Assembly (NCBI GenBank): GCA_027449865.1
Contig: DAIDKV010000108.1
Span: 1 to 64,000 of the forward strand
DNA length: 64,000 nucleotides
Origin: Planctomycetales bacterium
GTDB lineage: Bacteria; Planctomycetota; Planctomycetia; Isosphaerales; Isosphaeraceae
Direction: 5' to 3'
Shown here: one piece after another, positions 52,325 to 61,659 of the stretch
Position numbering within the stretch: the stretch's first letter is position 1
How the letters are laid out: each line of letters starts with the position of its first letter
Program-made: the position numbers and the translations under genes
The notes under the pieces: model-generated
What the model was told of the DNA's origin: nothing
The model's database searches: none
What the model saw: only the letters and a program-made list of their open reading frames with translations

Positions 52325-53991
<1,667 letters not shown>

Positions 53992-53995
<4 letters not shown>

Positions 53996-54435
53996 CGAAT
54001 CATAACCTCCTTGCGATCCTCTTTTGCGAGTGTGTCCCGATGTTTGGAGCGCAAGAGTTCCTCGACAGTGGAGAGGATCGCTTGAGCCGAGGTGCCCGGG
54101 GTGAAGATCGCCCGGACACCAATCTCCTTCAGGTAGGAAATATCCTCTTCGGGGATCGTCCCGCCACCGAAGACAAGGATATTCCCCGCGCTGCGTTCGG
54201 TGAGCTCATCGATCACTCGGCGGAAGAGCACGCGATGTGCCCCACTGAGAACACTGAGCCCGATTGCGTCGACATTCTCCCGAATGGCGGCCTCGACGAT
54301 CTCTTCGGGACTCCGGCGGATGCCCGTATAGATGACGTCGTAGCCTGTGTTTCGCAAAAGGCGGGCGACATACCGGGCTCCTCGGTCATGCCCGTCGAGA
54401 CCCGGTTTGCCGATGAGGATACGTCCCTTCGACAT
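53992..54435 (-). CDS. Methylmalonyl-CoA mutase small (B12-binding) subunit
   Basis: 147 aa from ATG 54435 (MSKGRILIGKPGLDGHDRG). It has the cobalamin lower-ligand motif D-x-H-x-x-G (Asp14-His16-Gly19), the GLSVLSGAHRV stretch and FGGGTIPEED. It is the B12-binding domain on a separate gene, a split type found in archaea and some bacteria. Translationally coupled to the large subunit (ATGA overlap) and 22 nt after the PEP synthase gene. Confidence 0.9.
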
Positions 54436-54457
54436 GGTCGCTTTCCTCTGGTTTGCA

Positions 54458-56878
54458 TCAGACGCCGGCAGTCGCGGACTCCAACTCGAGCACGCTAAGC
54501 GTGGTCCTGAGGACTGCGTCGGGGTTGAGCGAGATACTATCGATCCCCTGCTCGACAAGAAAGCGGGCGAACTCGGGGTAGTCGCTCGGCGCCTGGCCGC
54601 AGATTCCAATCTTTCGCCCTCGGGCCCTCGCGGCACGGATGACCTCCGCGATCATCTTCTTCACCGCCTCGTTGCGCTCGTCGAAAATGTGTGCGACGAT
54701 CTCCGAGTCGCGATCCACCCCCAGAACCAGCTGGGTCAGGTCGTTCGACCCGATCGAGAAGCCGTCGAAGATCTCGGCGAACTCGTCGGCAAGGATGACG
54801 TTGCTGGGGATCTCGCACATCACGTAGACCTCCAGCCCATGATGTCCTCGTTTCAGCCCGTGCTTCTCCATCTCGGCGAGCACCCTGCGCCCCTCGTCGA
54901 CGGTCCGGCAGAAGGGGATCATGAGTTTGACGTTGGTAAGCCCCATCTCGTCGCGAACCTTCTTCATGGCTCGACATTCCAGGGCAAAACCGGCTCGGTA
55001 CCGAGGATCGTAATAGCGCGAGGCGCCTCGGAAGCCCAGCATCGGGTTCTCCTCGGTCGGCTCGTAGCGACGTCCACCCACGAGGTTGGCATACTCGTTG
55101 GTCTTGAAGTCACTCAGGCGAACAATGACATCCCTGGGATAGAACGCCGCGCCGATCATGGCGACGCCCTGCGCCAGCTTCTCCACGAAGAAGGCGGGTT
55201 TGTCGTCGTAGCCGGCAGTCAGACGGTCGATCTCGGCCCGTACCGCCGGATCCTCTGGCTGTCCGTAGTCGAGCAACGCCAGGGGATGGATCTTGATGTA
55301 AGTCGAAATGATAAACTCTTCACGGGCCAGGCCAACACCATCGCTGGGCAGGAACGAGAGCCGAAATGCCTCCTCAGGATTGCCGACGTTCATCATGATC
55401 TTCGTCGCAGGCCGTCCGAGATGCCGAAGATCCTGTCGCTGGACCTCGAAGTCGATGAGGCCCTCGTAGACAAATCCCGTGTCACCCTCGGCGTCGGAGA
55501 CAGTCACCTCCTGGCCGTCGCGAAGGATCTCAGTCCCGCGTTCGGTTCCGACGACGGCCGGCAGCCCAAGCTCCCGGCTGACGATCGCCGCGTGGCAAGT
55601 TCGTCCGCCGCGATTGGTAACGATCGCCGCAGCCTTTTTCATCGTCGGTTCCCAGTCGGGATCCGTCTTATCGGTGACGAGCACCTCGCCGTCGCGAAAC
55701 TGGTGGAGGTCCTGCACTCGCTTGATGATTCGAACCGGCCCCCGGCCAATCTTTTCTCCGACGCTCCGACCGCTGACCAGTACCCGTCCCGGGGCCTTCA
55801 GCCGGTAGACTTCGAGGGTGTCCGGCTTCTTTTGCGACTGGACCGTCTCGGGCCTGGCCTGCACGATGAAGAGTTCGCCGGTCCGCCCGTCCTTGGCCCA
55901 TTCCATGTCCATCGGTGTCGGCCGGCCTCGTCGGGCGGAGTAGTGCTCCTCAATGAGGCAAGCCCAGCGCGCCAGTTGGAGGATTTCGTCATCGGTGATC
56001 GCAAATCGAGCGCGATCCTCGGGCGGTACGGGAACGTTTCGGGTCATCCGGCCGCCGCCGACATCGTAGATCAGTTTGAATTCCTTGGTGCCGATCAGCT
56101 TCTGGAGGATCGGCCGGAAGCCCTGCCCGAGCGTCGGCTTGAAGACGTAGTATTCATCGGGATTGATCGATCCCTGAACCACATTTTCGCCCAGACCGTA
56201 AGACGCATTGATCAACACGGCGTCGCGGAAGCCGGTTTCCGTGTCGATCGAGAACATCACCCCCGAGGCCGCCAGGTCCGATCGCACCATGCGCTGGATG
56301 CCGATCGAAAGGCCAACCTTGAAGTGATCGAATCCCTTGTCCACTCGGTAAGAGATGGCCCGGTCGGTATAGAGTGAGGCAAAGCATCGCTTGCAGGTTT
56401 CCAGCAGCATGGGCGCACCCTGGACGTTCAGATACGTCTCCTGCTGGCCGGCAAAGCTGGCATCGGGAAGGTCCTCCGCGGTTGCACTGCTGCGGACGGC
56501 GACATCGACGGGCCTGTCGACGGCGCTGGAGAGTCGCTCGTAGGACGCGACGATAGCCGCTTCAATTTCCTGCGGCATCTCGGCGTCGAGGATGGCCTGG
56601 CGCGCTCGTCGACCGCGGTTGCGGAGGTCGTCCATGTCGCGGGTATCGAGTCCTTCGAGGATCGTCCGTAACTGTTGGTCCAGCCCCGATCGTTCGAGGA
56701 AGGCCCAGTAGGCGCCGGCCGTGACCGCAAAGCCGTCGGGCACCTTCACGCCCCTGGGAGTCAACTCGCGATACATCTCTCCCAGTGACGCGTTCTTCCC
56801 CCCAACGCTGGGGATGTCATCGATTCCAATCTCGGCGAACGGTCGGATGTAAACGGAGCTGTCTTGAGGTGCGGACAT
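54458..56878 (-). CDS. ppsA: Phosphoenolpyruvate synthase
   Basis: 806 aa from ATG 56878, with AAGGAGG 10 nt upstream; the frame extends to 56998 but as non-coding sequence. N-terminal ATP-grasp domain (VGGKNASLGEMYRELTPRG; AVRSSATAEDLPDASFAG), phosphohistidine domain with the catalytic His in GGRTCHAAIVSREL (near 425), and a C-terminal PEP-binding barrel (GSNDLTQLVLGVDRD; CGQAPSDYPEFARFLVEQGI). It makes PEP, AMP and phosphate from pyruvate, ATP and water. It follows the 158-aa protein gene and precedes methylmalonyl-CoA mutase, so it is in an operon with fermentation/gluconeogenic steps. Confidence 0.93.
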   Translation of the reverse strand: MSAPQDSSVYIRPFAEIGIDDIPSVGGKNASLGEMYRELTPRGVKVPDGFAVTAGAYWAFLERSGLDQQLRTILEGLDTRDMDDLRNRGRRARQAILDAEMPQEIEAAIVASYERLSSAVDRPVDVAVRSSATAEDLPDASFAGQQETYLNVQGAPMLLETCKRCFASLYTDRAISYRVDKGFDHFKVGLSIGIQRMVRSDLAASGVMFSIDTETGFRDAVLINASYGLGENVVQGSINPDEYYVFKPTLGQGFRPILQKLIGTKEFKLIYDVGGGRMTRNVPVPPEDRARFAITDDEILQLARWACLIEEHYSARRGRPTPMDMEWAKDGRTGELFIVQARPETVQSQKKPDTLEVYRLKAPGRVLVSGRSVGEKIGRGPVRIIKRVQDLHQFRDGEVLVTDKTDPDWEPTMKKAAAIVTNRGGRTCHAAIVSRELGLPAVVGTERGTEILRDGQEVTVSDAEGDTGFVYEGLIDFEVQRQDLRHLGRPATKIMMNVGNPEEAFRLSFLPSDGVGLAREEFIISTYIKIHPLALLDYGQPEDPAVRAEIDRLTAGYDDKPAFFVEKLAQGVAMIGAAFYPRDVIVRLSDFKTNEYANLVGGRRYEPTEENPMLGFRGASRYYDPRYRAGFALECRAMKKVRDEMGLTNVKLMIPFCRTVDEGRRVLAEMEKHGLKRGHHGLEVYVMCEIPSNVILADEFAEIFDGFSIGSNDLTQLVLGVDRDSEIVAHIFDERNEAVKKMIAEVIRAARARGRKIGICGQAPSDYPEFARFLVEQGIDSISLNPDAVLRTTLSVLELESATAGV

Positions 56879-56932
56879 GATCGAAGTCCTCCTTCTGATG
56901 GGCGATTTCACGGCTGCTCTGTCGAGGGGGGC

Positions 56933-56998: not shown

Positions 56999-57475
56999 TC
57001 AGGCCATTGCCGTTGCTCGACCCAGGTGAGCAAGCCGCCAGGTCCGGTAGAGCGATCCGACCGTCTGGATATCGTACGGATGGGCGAGCCGTCCATACGC
57101 GTACGAGGACCCTCCGGAACGGAAGGCACTCTTCGCTTCCACGTCGACACATACCTCGTGGTCGCGGAGGAACGGAAGGAAATCTTCAAGGTCCTCCTCG
57201 GTCATCTGGAATCGTCCGCTCTCGTCGATGTACAGTTCTTCAATCAGCGGCACTCCTTCCTCAGCCTCGACGGGAATGGCCTGAGAGCGTGCGGGCAGGT
57301 TGGGGTCGAGTCGCTCCAGCCTTTCGGCCAGGCCATGGAGGTCGGCGCCCTGGGTGCGGTGCGCCTCGGCCAGGGTTTCGGCAGAAGCCCTGTGCAGGAC
57401 TGTGAGGAGAGCCTCACGCTCCGCACCGGACAGGATCAGCATGTAACTCGATTCTTGGCGGGCCTGGGCAGACAT
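56999..57475 (-). CDS. Hypothetical 158-aa protein leading the ppsA operon
   Basis: ATG 57475 with AAAGGAG just upstream. It is acidic and has two parts: a helical N-terminus (ILSGAEREALLTVLHRASAE) and a segment with ELYIDESGRFQMTEEDLEDF. It ends in DIQTVGSLYRTWRLAHLG. I recognise no family, and no membrane segment or signal is present. It is the first gene after the structured leader RNA (57575-57655) and is followed by ppsA, methylmalonyl-CoA mutase and decarboxylase. Its function is therefore a target for study within that regulated unit. Confidence 0.65.
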   Translation of the reverse strand: MSAQARQESSYMLILSGAEREALLTVLHRASAETLAEAHRTQGADLHGLAERLERLDPNLPARSQAIPVEAEEGVPLIEELYIDESGRFQMTEEDLEDFLPFLRDHEVCVDVEAKSAFRSGGSSYAYGRLAHPYDIQTVGSLYRTWRLAHLGRATAMA

Positions 57476-57574
57476 CTCCGTCTCCTTTCTCTCGAAGGGC
57501 GAGCCGCCTGGTCCTCAAACACCGAGCGGCCTGGTCGGTCTGCGGGCTCAAGGACCGATCCGAGAGACCAATAG

Positions 57575-57655
57575 AAAAGCCCCACGATTCGATCGCCAGG
57601 ATCGTATCGCGGGGCCGCCTTAGCCGACTCGCGGTCGCCCTTCATGAGCGACCAC
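57575..57655 (-). ncRNA. Structured leader RNA, copy C, with terminator
   Basis: On the minus strand: hairpin 1 (57653-57633) with outer pair GGTC/GACC and core CTC-ATGAA-GGG. Hairpin 2 is GGCT-AAGGC-GGCC (57625-57613). A 16-bp terminator stem (GCCCCGCGATACGATC, 57615-57600, pairing down to 57579, with one mismatch and one G-U) is followed by TTTT (57578-57575). The 3' arm of hairpin 2 shares three bases with the terminator's 5' arm. Two further copies are at 59442-59519 and 60988-61064. The U-run ends 100 nt before the start of the 158-aa gene. I do not recognise a known riboswitch. Confidence 0.7.
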
Positions 57656-57663
57656 ACTCCTTT

Positions 57664-57692
57664 ATCCTATCAAGACCCCTCCGCAATGATAA
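57664..57692 (-). promoter_or_regulatory. Promoter-like sequence for leader RNA copy C
   Basis: TTATCA (57692-57687), 17 nt, TAGGAT (57669-57664); both elements match the consensus at four of six positions. The -35 is about 42 nt before the conserved loop, the same distance as in copies A and B. Confidence 0.35.
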
Positions 57693-57894
57693 GCCCCTGC
57701 TGGTTCGACTTGGAAATCGGGCGACCGGCCGACCACCTCAGCACCACTGGCGATCAGTTCCTGGATATTCACCGACTTGAAAAGTAATCGACCATCCTAG
57801 GTCTCCAGAAACACCGGGGCATCGTCCCCGGCAAGATCGATAGTCGGCAGCCATGACACCGAGACGCCCAGCTCCCCACGACTCAACATATCCA

Positions 57895-59064
57895 TCATGC
57901 TTCATTCATTGCGAGCAATCGGATCAAAAAAGAACTTCCCTTGCCAGGTAGACTGGTCACATGCAGGGAGCCTCGATTCTTCTCGAGGATCATCCGAACC
58001 AGAGCGAGCCCCAGGCCAAGTCCCCGAGCCTTGTTCGAGTAGAGTGGCTCAGTGAGCCGGGGGATATCGCCCGGCGCGATCCCAACTCCTGTATCGATCA
58101 CCGCCATCTCGATCCCGCCATCGATCGCGCGACCACGGAGCGTCAGCCGCCCGCCTGAGGGCATCGCATCGCTGGCGTTGCGAATCAGGTTTCCCAGGGC
58201 GATCCGGATCTGTCCAGGATCCGCCAACCCAAGGGGCAGATTGGACGGGCAATCGACGATGACCTCAACGCCTGTCGTCACGGCAGAGTCTTCCAGGGCC
58301 TGGCGAAGACACGGCTCGATCGGAAATGGACATGGATCGGGAGTCGGCATCCGGGCGAAATTCGTTAGCGTCGTGATCACCTGCTCGGCCTGCATCACGT
58401 GCCGCTCGATCCGCTCCATGTGCTGGTCTCGCTTTTCCGGCGAAATCATGCGAGCTGACTTCAAATAAAAATGCGATGACTTTATGACATTTAGAGGGTT
58501 TCGTATCTCATGCGCGATTCCTCCAGCGATCTGTCCCAGGCTTGCCAGACGTTCGTTCGCCTGAATGCGAGCGACATACTCCGACTGATAGGCATCCTCG
58601 ATCTTCGCCAGGTCGAGGTCCAGAAGCTTGTTCAGCGATCGGATGGCTGCCACCAAACCGGCCTGGTCGCCAGGCCACGATTCGCTCAGGTAGCGTACCA
58701 GGCCATCGCGGAGTCTTGAGAGTGAAACATTGATATAGACCTGAGCAAGCCCAATCTCGACATGGCGAATGCCACCCTGCCATCTTCGATCGACATATGC
58801 GCGGTCGTAAGGACCGCTCAGTAACTCGACGAGCCAATTGTACAAAGCCTCCCTGTGTCGATCCACCTGGACCGGATCGCCAAGAAAAACACGATAAGCC
58901 TCAGAGTGCCGCGACACCTCGGCGTAAAAATCCTCCACAAGCGCGGGCAAATACGGCTCGAGAACGGGACGTAATTCACGCACCCGGACGGCATCTTCCT
59001 CGCTCCATCCGACGAAAGACTGCAATTCCTGATACCGCCTGAAAACCTGGTCCGGATCCTTCAT
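57895..59064 (-). CDS. Histidine kinase with globin-coupled sensor domain
   Basis: 389 aa from ATG 59064 (AGAGGAATGCG upstream). Residues about 10-160 resemble protoglobin/globin-coupled sensors: EDAVRVRELRPVLEPYLPAL, then RRWQGGIRHVEIGLAQVY, in which His101 is the likely heme-binding proximal His. A linker helix leads to HisKA with the phospho-acceptor His185 (GGIAHEIRNPL) and an HATPase with NLIRNASDAMPSGG, DTGVGI and GLGLGLALV. So it should be a heme-based oxygen (or NO/CO) sensor kinase, soluble, with no membrane helix. No response regulator gene is nearby. It is divergent from the protease gene at 59665. Confidence 0.82.
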   Translation of the reverse strand: MKDPDQVFRRYQELQSFVGWSEEDAVRVRELRPVLEPYLPALVEDFYAEVSRHSEAYRVFLGDPVQVDRHREALYNWLVELLSGPYDRAYVDRRWQGGIRHVEIGLAQVYINVSLSRLRDGLVRYLSESWPGDQAGLVAAIRSLNKLLDLDLAKIEDAYQSEYVARIQANERLASLGQIAGGIAHEIRNPLNVIKSSHFYLKSARMISPEKRDQHMERIERHVMQAEQVITTLTNFARMPTPDPCPFPIEPCLRQALEDSAVTTGVEVIVDCPSNLPLGLADPGQIRIALGNLIRNASDAMPSGGRLTLRGRAIDGGIEMAVIDTGVGIAPGDIPRLTEPLYSNKARGLGLGLALVRMILEKNRGSLHVTSLPGKGSSFLIRLLAMNEA

Positions 59065-59406
59065 CGCATTCCTCTCGAAGAAACGGGTCTTCATAATATC
59101 AGACCTGGGGACCGTCGCACGCAGGTCCCTCCGCTTCACGAATAGGACCGCCGATTATGCCAAACGTTATGGTAATGACGTTCAAGACTGCCGTGCAAGT
59201 TGGAAATGAATACCTCTTGCTCCAGAACCCAGAACTCCAAAGATCCCTATGCAATCACCAGTCGAGTGCAATTTCTCAAGCTTTCGCGTTTTTGGACCAT
59301 CGAAAGCCTAGGGCGGGGACTGACGTACAGAAGTGCGTCTGGGAAAGCCAGCTCGAATTCCTCTCAAACTTTCCGCAACTACCGCTGGCAGGGGTAATGC
59401 TGGGGA
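59065..59406. other. Intergenic region upstream of leader RNA copy A
   Basis: About 340 bp between the kinase start and copy A. A frame at 59157-59438 has no ribosome binding site and no family. Otherwise nothing was seen. Confidence 0.3.
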
Positions 59407-59435
59407 TTGACTTTGGCATCGCGTGGGCTCAATGT
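59407..59435 (+). promoter_or_regulatory. Promoter-like sequence for leader RNA copy A
   Basis: TTGACTTT at 59407-59414; after a 17-nt spacer a weak -10, CAATGT, lies at 59430-59435. The -35 and the following TGAGA are shared with copy B at the same distance (42 and 41 nt) from the conserved loop. Confidence 0.4.
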
Positions 59436-59441
59436 TGAGAA

Positions 59442-59519
59442 GCCGTTCGCTCGCGAAGGGAGAACGGTTCTGGCCAGGGTGGCCCCGTCGTGCGTACCGG
59501 CGCATGTGCGGGGTTTTTT
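59442..59519 (+). ncRNA. Structured leader RNA, copy A, with terminator
   Basis: Hairpin 1: GCCGTTC (59442-59448) with GAACGGT (59462-59468), around the core CTC-GCGAA-GGG. Hairpin 2: GGCC-AGGGT-GGCC (59472-59484). Terminator: CCCCG (59483-59487) with CGGGG (59509-59513) plus TGCG/CGCA, followed by six T (59514-59519). The U-run ends 145 nt before the site-2 protease start (59665). The terminator's 5' arm begins within the 3' arm of hairpin 2, so the two can compete. Confidence 0.72.
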
Positions 59520-59664
59520 GTTGCGCCCGGCTTGTTCGGACGATGCCTCGGTAACTGGGAGCAACCCGGAAGACACGCAAAAAGGCGATCGTGCGATTAT
59601 CATCAGGATTTTCGTGACGCCGATCGTGCGGATCTGATGCCAGAGGACAGGCTGGGAGGATAGC

Positions 59665-60834
59665 ATGGGATGGTCGTGGCGACTCGGTCGAATCGCGGGA
59701 ATTGATATCTACGTCCATCCGACGTTCCTGATCCTGCTCGCCTGGGTCGGCCTGGCGCATTATCTGGAACACGGCAACGTGGCGGAGGCTCTCGGCGGCA
59801 TCGCTTTCATTCTCTCGCTGTTCGGAATCATTATTCTGCATGAGCTTGGGCATGCGCTAACGGCCCGTCGATACGGAATCCGCACGCGAGACATCACACT
59901 TTTACCTATTGGAGGCGTGGCTCGACTGGAGCGCATACCCGAGGTCCCCTCGCAGGAATTGCTGGTCGCGCTGGCGGGACCAGCCGTCAACGTGGTTATC
60001 GCTTTTCTGATCTTTGTGGGACTGCACGCGATGGGACTCAGCGTTCGTCCGGCCGATTCGGCCCTTCGAGCGGGCGGTGGTTTCCTCCAGCAGATGTTCT
60101 GGGTGAATGTCATGCTAGTGGTCTTCAACCTCGTTCCCGCATTTCCGATGGATGGGGGCCGTGTGTTCCGGGCGTTGCTCGCCATGCGGTCCGATTACCT
60201 CCGAGCGACCCAAACTGCGGTCGCGGTCGGCCAGGGAATCGCGATTCTGTTCGGATTGCTGGGGCTTCTATCCAATCCCTTCCTGATCTTCATTGCCCTG
60301 TTCGTCTGGCTCGCGGGAGCGCAGGAAGCCGGGCTGGTGACAGCGCGATCGGCCCTGGCCGGTATCCCTGTGAACCGGGTCATGATCCAGGAGTTCCGCT
60401 CACTGGCCCCCGATGAGCCCCTGTCTCGAGCCGTGGCTGATGTACTGGCGGGATTTCAGCAGGATTTCCCGGTCATGGAAGACGATCGCGTGGTAGGAAT
60501 TTTAACACGTAACGACCTGGTCGCCGCCCTGGGGCAGCAGGGTTCAGAAACGCCCGTCGGCGAGGTGATGCAACGAGAGTTCGTGATGGCCTCCCCGCGG
60601 GAGATGCTCCAGACGGTCTTCGAGCGGCTCCAGAACGGCCATTCCCGGACGATACCAGTACTCTCCGATGGCCGGATGGTCGGTTTGCTCACAGCGGATA
60701 ACGTGGCCGAGCTCCTACTGATCCAGCAGGCCCTTCGAAGCACCCACCAACCTGGCCTCTTCGGCAGTTTCCCCGGGACCATCGAGGAACCGAGAGATTC
60801 TGGCGGAAAGCCTCGCGGCACCCCCGTTTGTTGA
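59665..60834 (+). CDS. Site-2 protease-family metalloprotease with two CBS domains
   Basis: 389 aa. HELGH at 59-63 provides the zinc ligands and catalytic Glu. The second site is in NLVPAFPMDGG (near 155), with the third ligand Asp. About six helices form the membrane core. The C-terminal half (about 235-360) has two CBS repeats (RVMIQEFRSLAPDEPLSRAV; DDRVVGILTRNDLVAALGQQ), which usually bind adenine nucleotides. GGGAGG lies 7 nt upstream. It cuts within membranes, probably releasing a regulator, and the CBS pair could couple it to energy charge. It follows RNA copy A. Confidence 0.88.
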   Translation: MGWSWRLGRIAGIDIYVHPTFLILLAWVGLAHYLEHGNVAEALGGIAFILSLFGIIILHELGHALTARRYGIRTRDITLLPIGGVARLERIPEVPSQELLVALAGPAVNVVIAFLIFVGLHAMGLSVRPADSALRAGGGFLQQMFWVNVMLVVFNLVPAFPMDGGRVFRALLAMRSDYLRATQTAVAVGQGIAILFGLLGLLSNPFLIFIALFVWLAGAQEAGLVTARSALAGIPVNRVMIQEFRSLAPDEPLSRAVADVLAGFQQDFPVMEDDRVVGILTRNDLVAALGQQGSETPVGEVMQREFVMASPREMLQTVFERLQNGHSRTIPVLSDGRMVGLLTADNVAELLLIQQALRSTHQPGLFGSFPGTIEEPRDSGGKPRGTPVC

Positions 60835-60950
60835 TCGAGAATCCGGGAGCCCTCCACCGCTACCGACAGCAGGACGACGGGACATGCGCGGCGACTTCGG
60901 CCCTTCGAGCTCCGAGAAGAAGCCGCATCCATTCTTCAAGAGGTCCATCG

Positions 60951-60979
60951 TTGACTTTTCCCTGTCGGCCGCATTATCG
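60951..60979 (+). promoter_or_regulatory. Promoter-like sequence for leader RNA copy B
   Basis: TTGACTTT (from 60951), 17-nt spacer, TTATCG at 60974-60979 (or TATCGT with 18 nt). The same TTGACTTT starts copy A's promoter. Confidence 0.45.
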
Positions 60980-60987
60980 TGAGATTC

Positions 60988-61064
60988 GATTGCTCGCGAT
61001 GGGTAATCCATTCCTGGCCAGGGTGGCCCCGACATGCGATTCCTCGCATGCTCGGGGCTTTTTT
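60988..61064 (+). ncRNA. Structured leader RNA, copy B, with terminator
   Basis: Hairpin 1: GATT (60988-60991) with AATC (61005-61008), around CTC-GCGAT-GGG. Hairpin 2: GGCC-AGGGT-GGCC (61016-61028). Terminator: GCCCCGA (61026-61032) with TCGGGGC (61052-61058) and ATGCGA with TCGCAT, then six T (61059-61064). The U-run ends 130 nt before the YbaK-type gene. Downstream of the U-run the GTTGCGCC stretch is shared with copy A. Confidence 0.72.
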
Positions 61065-61194
61065 GTTGCGCCGGGAGATCGTTCAGGGGACGGCCCATCT
61101 CGCTCCTGTCTGGCGGCCAGGTCCTGCGGCCTCGATCGCCAGACCGCACCCGGTTTCATGGCAACGGCGATGCTTCGGGTCAGGAGTCACACCA

Positions 61195-61659
61195 ATGACC
61201 ACGCCGAACCACACAAACATATCCAGGATAGGCAATCAAACCAAATGGAACACGTCAGGGACTGGCCGCGGGGCCAGGGTCGCGATTGTCCTTGCGGACG
61301 ATCGACCGATCGCACTGATTTTCCCGACCAGCCGCCGTCTCGTTCTGGAGCGGCTGAGGAAACTACTCGATGCCGATGAAGTGCGGCTCGCCGATCCTGA
61401 CGAGGTCGAGCAAATCCACGGGCGCTCGGAGACGGGGCCGATCCCGACGCACCCCGACCTGAGGGGCGTCTCCTCGCTCGTTGACGCAACGCTCATGAGC
61501 GCGCGGACGTTGCATGTCCGATGCCTCCGTCAGGAGGTCGTTGTTCCGTTGAACCTTGAGGATTGGCTGGTGTCAGCCGGTTCGGGATGGGGATTCTTCA
61601 CCGAACCCGACTCGGCATCATGCGATACCGAACCAAACTGCTCCGGGAGCCCGACATGA
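61195..61659 (+). CDS. YbaK/EbsC-type aminoacyl-tRNA deacylase-like protein
   Basis: 154 aa from ATG 61195, with AGGAG 8 nt before. It has an AIVLADDRPIALIFPTSRRL stretch, a Lys-rich helix and GPIPTHPDLRGVSSLVDATL, and fits the YbaK/INS fold whose members clear mischarged tRNAs. Typical YbaK size is 150-160 aa. The first about 25 residues are a variable extension. It is preceded by RNA copy B and is followed by a 49-aa gene in the same direction. Confidence 0.65.
   Translation: MTTPNHTNISRIGNQTKWNTSGTGRGARVAIVLADDRPIALIFPTSRRLVLERLRKLLDADEVRLADPDEVEQIHGRSETGPIPTHPDLRGVSSLVDATLMSARTLHVRCLRQEVVVPLNLEDWLVSAGSGWGFFTEPDSASCDTEPNCSGSPT

Follow-up and report, generated by a model that had tools for sequence, protein, structure and literature searches.

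The window analyzed here is a stretch of 64,000 nucleotides from a planctomycete of the Isosphaeraceae (contig DAIDKV010000108.1). It harbors three copies of a structured leader RNA: copy A (57566..57656) on the minus strand, and copies B (59442..59527) and C (60985..61072) on the plus strand, matching a covariance model with 66.9, 85.5, and 93.6 bits, respectively. All three fold more stably than their shuffled versions (z of −4.9, −2.6, and −3.6 for A, B, and C). In copy A, the hairpin 1 loop AUGAA (57645-57641) is followed by hairpin 2, GGCU-AAGGC-GGCC (57625-57613), and by a terminator (57616-57579) that leads into a U-run, all on the minus strand. On the plus strand, copy B carries the hairpin 1 loop GCGAA (59453-59457), hairpin 2 GGCC-AGGGU-GGCC (59472-59484), a terminator starting at 59481, and a U-run at 59512-59517, while copy C employs the loop GCGAU (60996-61000), the hairpin 2 GGCC-AGGGU-GGCC (61016-61028), a terminator from 61025, and a U-run at 61059-61064. 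Promoter-like sites precede copy B (TTGACT - 17 - CAATGT, 59407..59435, plus strand) and copy C (TTGACT - 18 - TATCGT, 60951..60980, plus strand). A sequence-only reading of the window had described these three copies with their hairpins and terminators; direct inspection of the DNA confirms them, and the covariance model re-placed their coordinates.

The first gene after copy A encodes a 158-aa protein without a Pfam match (56999..57475, minus strand), a homologue of which is also found behind a leader in locus L121. The second encodes a PEP synthase / pyruvate phosphate dikinase (54458..56902, minus strand; PPDK_N, E 1e-123), and the PEP synthase gene is the one immediately behind the leader in genomes G016 and G019. 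Genes for a methylmalonyl-CoA mutase large subunit and for a B12-binding subunit follow the PEP synthase gene behind copy A (52325-56902, minus strand); these genes and that of the PEP synthase possibly form one operon. Copy B precedes a gene for an M50 site-2 protease with CBS domains (59665..60834, plus strand; Pfam), and copy C one for an aminoacyl-tRNA editing-domain protein (61195..61659, plus strand; tRNA_edit, 7.6e-9). The distances between U-run and start codon (approximately 100, 147, and 130 nt) fit genes beginning at 57475, 59665, and 61195. Between copies A and B lies a gene for a protoglobin histidine kinase (57895..59064, minus strand; Protoglobin PF11563 at 3.5e-31, HisKA, and HATPase_c).

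No Rfam family accounts for the element, as had been suspected: the whole window has 0 matches in Rfam 15 at the gathering cut-off, and a relaxed search around the copies returned one irrelevant sub-threshold match (E 1.3). A core-pattern scan of the source genome located ten places, all with the same general anatomy, one of them (C27) diverged. Eight of the core-pattern copies served to build a covariance model (R1), which found 18 copies in that genome, and a refined model built from 95 copies (R2) found 19, with a best E of ~1e-16; a family of this size is not a product of chance. With R2, leaders are present in 31/45 genomes of the Isosphaeraceae, reaching a maximum of 44 in genome G009, and the expectation of further copies with preserved pairing in front of genes is thereby met. 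An exact-pattern scan of named genomes had matches only in planctomycete metagenome-assembled genomes (Planctomycetales, Planctomycetota, or Isosphaeraceae). The looser pattern CTCRYGAWGGG..GGC was dropped, its matches being mostly due to chance in GC-rich DNA.

In the leader, two hairpins with the loops RNGAN (hairpin 1) and ANGRY (hairpin 2) flank a linker and are followed by an intrinsic terminator; both hairpins are part of the consensus, with 94.5% of cells paired. Hairpin 1 has the form stem-GCUC-RNGAN-GGGY-stem, in which the third loop position (G3) is a guanine in 94/94 aligned copies, 92 of which retain the U-G pair. Hairpin 2 has the form GGCY-ANGRY-RGCC, with A1 in 87/95 copies and G3 in 93/95. 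Two pentaloops with G3 co-occur in 87/95 copies as opposed to 18.5 expected. The linker measures 5-10 nt in 94/95 copies (7 nt in 61), and the two loop guanines are spaced by 22-27 nt with the exception of one copy. The covariation of hairpin 1 claimed from the three window copies extends to the larger set of 95 copies, in which 18/22 pairs of hairpin 1 and the terminator change on both sides. Double-changed cells number 267 versus 76 ± 7 in shuffles, none of 500 shuffles has as many, and the covariation score is 0.40 versus 0.02-0.08 for slid versions. Covariation is also seen when the two hairpins are taken together; hairpin 2, with its nearly invariant arms, contributes covariation of its own at a single position only. 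The alignment used for counting pairs was fitted to its own model; nevertheless, both controls, slid and shuffled, give a clear result. In one copy on contig C16 (L114 3494-3579), hairpin 1 carries AGGGU, the loop typical of hairpin 2, which suggests that the two loops are interchangeable for whatever binds them.

In nearly all copies, the RGCC sequence serves both as the 3′ arm of hairpin 2 and as the base of the terminator stem. The overlap proposed earlier thus exists, but it comprises four nucleotides and not two to three. Because hairpin 2 can be made to form only at an average cost of 5.2 ± 2.5 kcal/mol, with unpaired bases then separating a shortened terminator stem from the U-run, termination is the predicted default state in the folding calculations, such that holding hairpin 2 would have to be paid for by something else. 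A sigma-70-like promoter signal, TTGAC-17-TAnnnT, is located mostly 5-9 nt upstream of the element, and 59/95 copies score at least 9 of 12 compared with 3.7% of shuffles. Directly after the U-run, a TTGCGCC-like sequence is kept in ~70-80% of copies (alignment columns 117-123; 59512-59527 and 61060-61072 in the window), past what an intrinsic terminator should need; it may be a pause site for the polymerase or, alternatively, an element of the read-through transcript.

The element is a cis-acting leader and not a free sRNA, since the next gene lies on the same strand for 87/91 copies (binomial p = 2e-21) and, within the source genome alone, for 18/18 determinable copies. These counts stem from a simple home-made gene caller, and orthologous copies are not independent; the caller missed the true first gene of copy C at 61195, which is likewise on the same strand. 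In favor of a multicopy family of free-standing sRNAs that act in trans by base pairing are the element's own promoter and terminator, its length of ~85 nt, and its many copies. However, a trans-acting RNA is expected to have a same-strand neighbor in only 50% of cases, the loops are short, structured, and repeat a single motif, and the leaders are tightly linked to ANTAR genes (see below). This reading is rejected on the strand statistics, with only a very small chance left to it.

Targets were assigned with Pfam, and translations were read by eye where Pfam listed no family. The first genes behind the leaders encode Hsp20, universal stress proteins, PEP synthase, FtsH, SPFH, CBS, BON, and PRTase proteins, Prs, acetate kinase (AckA), PFOR, an erythromycin-esterase-like protein, ECF sigma factors, CsrA, HPr, FBPase, cytochromes, and the aminoacyl-tRNA editing protein, among others. 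This set resembles a hypoxia/dormancy regulon. The source genome has seven Hsp20 domains, and the listed leaders precede only one of them (on contig C46). Two tandem leaders (L111 9395-9478 and 9856-9941) stand before one Hsp20 gene, an arrangement kept in three genomes of the genus (also L123 and L124) and a possible double attenuator. The csrA gene is found behind a leader in G016 and G019 (L154 3457-3887 and L125 3092-3517), and the leader system may feed into this second global RNA-based regulator.

ANTAR genes were searched because the layout of the leader matched that of ANTAR antitermination (PMC3369931, PMC8934654). In the ANTAR tree, groups II and III form a clade of their own, separate from a core type present in most genomes (group I). 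Group II/III genes occur in 30/31 leader-bearing genomes versus 0/14 leaderless ones (p 9e-11), the lone exception being G013 (81% complete), which carries 13 leaders and lacks a group II ANTAR gene. For these counts, G044 was scored on a group III-like member only, and an ANTAR gene of G041 (C14) was assigned to group II by its neighborhood, which holds a protoglobin kinase and a leader; G031 and G032 were apparent exceptions with R1 and positive with R2. Leaders lie within ~7 kb of group II ANTAR genes at 17/21 loci (30 leaders in 250 kb), in contrast to 0/20 loci around the paralogous group I genes (245 kb; p 5e-8 for group II versus group I). The group II regulator of the source genome is encoded away from the window, on contig C46 (L111 6873-7472), and is a REC-ANTAR protein with both domains above the curated cut-offs (Response_reg 3.4e-24, ANTAR 8.2e-21). 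The evidence that this protein binds the leaders is indirect, consisting of co-occurrence and linkage only, without RNA-seq, binding, or mutant data.

Alternatively, another RNA-binding protein such as CsrA could read the leaders, and their linkage to ANTAR genes would be a by-product of a shared stress locus. CsrA sites have a GGA core. The presence of csrA itself behind the leader in two genomes and the ANGG-type loops, which recall CsrA sites, are consistent with this reading, yet the loops lack the GGA core and most hairpin 1 loops are RNGAN, so that identity as CsrA targets is rejected on loop sequence. Moreover, leader presence follows the group II/III ANTAR genes and not the other ANTAR type, and a pair of hairpins that overlaps a terminator is the arrangement of ANTAR targets (PMC3369931); a non-ANTAR binder is very improbable. 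The least likely candidate is a metabolite riboswitch, which would share a structured leader before genes, competing stems, and a terminator but is disfavored by the lack of an obvious ligand pocket in two 4-8 bp hairpins with 5-nt loops, by the absence of a metabolite common to the targets, and by co-occurrence and linkage with an RNA-binding regulator, which explain the data better. Of the earlier proposal that competing stems indicate an attenuator or riboswitch-like leader, the cis leader is supported by the same-strand statistics and attenuation by competing stems fits, with an ANTAR response regulator in place of a small ligand as the most likely agent.

In published ANTAR targets, both loops are hexaloops that carry A1 and G4 (PMC3369931, PMC8164766). 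Like the targets of EutV, NasR, and AmiR (PMC3369931, PMC8934654), the planctomycete leaders combine two small hairpins, a short linker, and a REC-ANTAR regulator; the second hairpin is mutually exclusive with an intrinsic terminator, loop purine 1 is conserved, and a guanine sits two nucleotides before the 3′ closing base. In contrast to those targets, the loops are pentaloops with G3. The classical register was tried and rejected: 0/95 copies have two A1-G4 hexaloops and 4 have one, with 11.4 expected by chance. Further differences from these systems are the many operons per genome, the planctomycete host, and a protoglobin kinase in place of ethanolamine or nitrate sensing. Since the layout is ANTAR-like and the defining hexaloop feature is not met, the leaders are here called a new variant of ANTAR antitermination, for which binding remains inferred.

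In EutV, Met172 plugs the hexaloop and has been proposed as the determinant of loop size (PMC8934654). Alignment of the source-genome group II protein to EutV indicates that R142, K143, K147, K149, and E160 are kept, while Tyr164 is replaced by Phe and Met172 by Ser; this serine is also kept in relatives of the protein. The actinobacterial PdtaR/Rv1626 (PMC8164766) is likewise a soluble REC-ANTAR regulator, and 1S8N is the best PDB sequence match of the planctomycete protein. Actinobacterial ANTAR RNAs are reported to comprise up to 36 targets in some genomes (PMC8164766).

Relatives of the protoglobin kinase in the window are found in 25/31 leader-bearing genomes and 0/14 leaderless ones, mostly 2-4 kb from a group II ANTAR gene. 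One such relative heads the regulator operon of the source genome, in which genes for the protoglobin kinase, a REC-REC protein, a REC-kinase, and the REC-ANTAR protein overlap by four bases. G014 has the same operon order, and the gene that overlaps the ANTAR gene in G037 encodes a single protein combining a protoglobin region at its N-terminus with a kinase region. The presumed proximal histidine, within the motif RH(V/A)(E/D)(I/V)GL, is invariant in 19 sequences. On the basis of this shared operon and the invariant histidine, the best guess for the signal is a heme ligand, most likely O2, although both heme and ligand binding are inferred from sequence. The near-complete, leader-bearing genomes G028, G031, and G032 have no protoglobin kinase and, therefore, must rely on another sensor.

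Taken together, RNA structure, cis position, promoter and terminator signals, the overlap, co-occurrence, and operon linkage, all of which are observed, make it highly probable that the leader is a 5′ attenuator controlled by a REC-ANTAR response regulator and linked to heme or oxygen; binding, phosphorylation, the direction of control, and the ligand are inferred. Transcription would start at the sigma-70-type promoter just upstream and by default stop at the terminator. The phosphorylated REC-ANTAR regulator is proposed to bind both small hairpins via the pentaloops with their nearly invariant G3. Binding would keep hairpin 2 closed and withdraw RGCC from the base of the terminator stem beside the U-run, so that polymerase would read through into the stress/low-oxygen gene. 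The signal, most likely oxygen or another heme ligand because the regulator operon on contig C46 holds the protoglobin histidine kinase, may be relayed via this kinase and its receiver/kinase partners. In planctomycetes of this family, one ANTAR regulator appears to open as many as ~44 of these switches in a genome.

It is moderately probable that the whole amounts to a hypoxia/dormancy regulon of up to ~40 operons, in which the switch, in place of a DNA-binding regulator, is a heme-sensing phosphorelay that ends in an ANTAR protein, and this protein reads a new dual-pentaloop RNA code at the attenuator preceding every operon. In the mycobacterial DosS/DosT-DosR hypoxia regulon, heme-based kinases act together with DosR, which binds DNA, and the dormancy set holds Hsp20, Usp, CBS, and PRTase/erythromycin esterase genes. 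The planctomycete system shares heme-based kinases, inferred here from sequence, and the kinds of target genes. In contrast to DosR, its proposed output is an RNA-binding antiterminator, and no homology of output domains is claimed. DNA-binding regulators, DosR or FNR for example, usually fill the output role in a global oxygen/stress response; if the present reading is true, antitermination can be the main output. Among open-licence papers, the only literature searched, none combines the ANTAR domain, Planctomycetes, and RNA, and none combines the ANTAR domain, globin, and histidine kinase; within that scope, this wiring of leader, ANTAR protein, and heme sensor is not described. A true system would also give planctomycetes a defined regulon, no ANTAR target being described there in the same literature, and would test the EutV Met172 proposal for loop size with a serine and five-base loops. 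For work on the loop code, the many natural leaders already supply the data.

Among 294 genomes drawn from the phylum, there are only weak single matches outside the source genome. Two of these are probably real. In G318, a group II-like ANTAR gene (60% identity) is situated ~1.1 kb from the match (L246, G318:C101:7059-7186). G301 also encodes a group II-like ANTAR protein (54%), and its leader match (L242 1501-1584) is followed first by a gene for a protein interpreted as hemerythrin-like and then by one for a CBS protein. On the strength of these two matches, a diverged form of the system may reach other families of the class.
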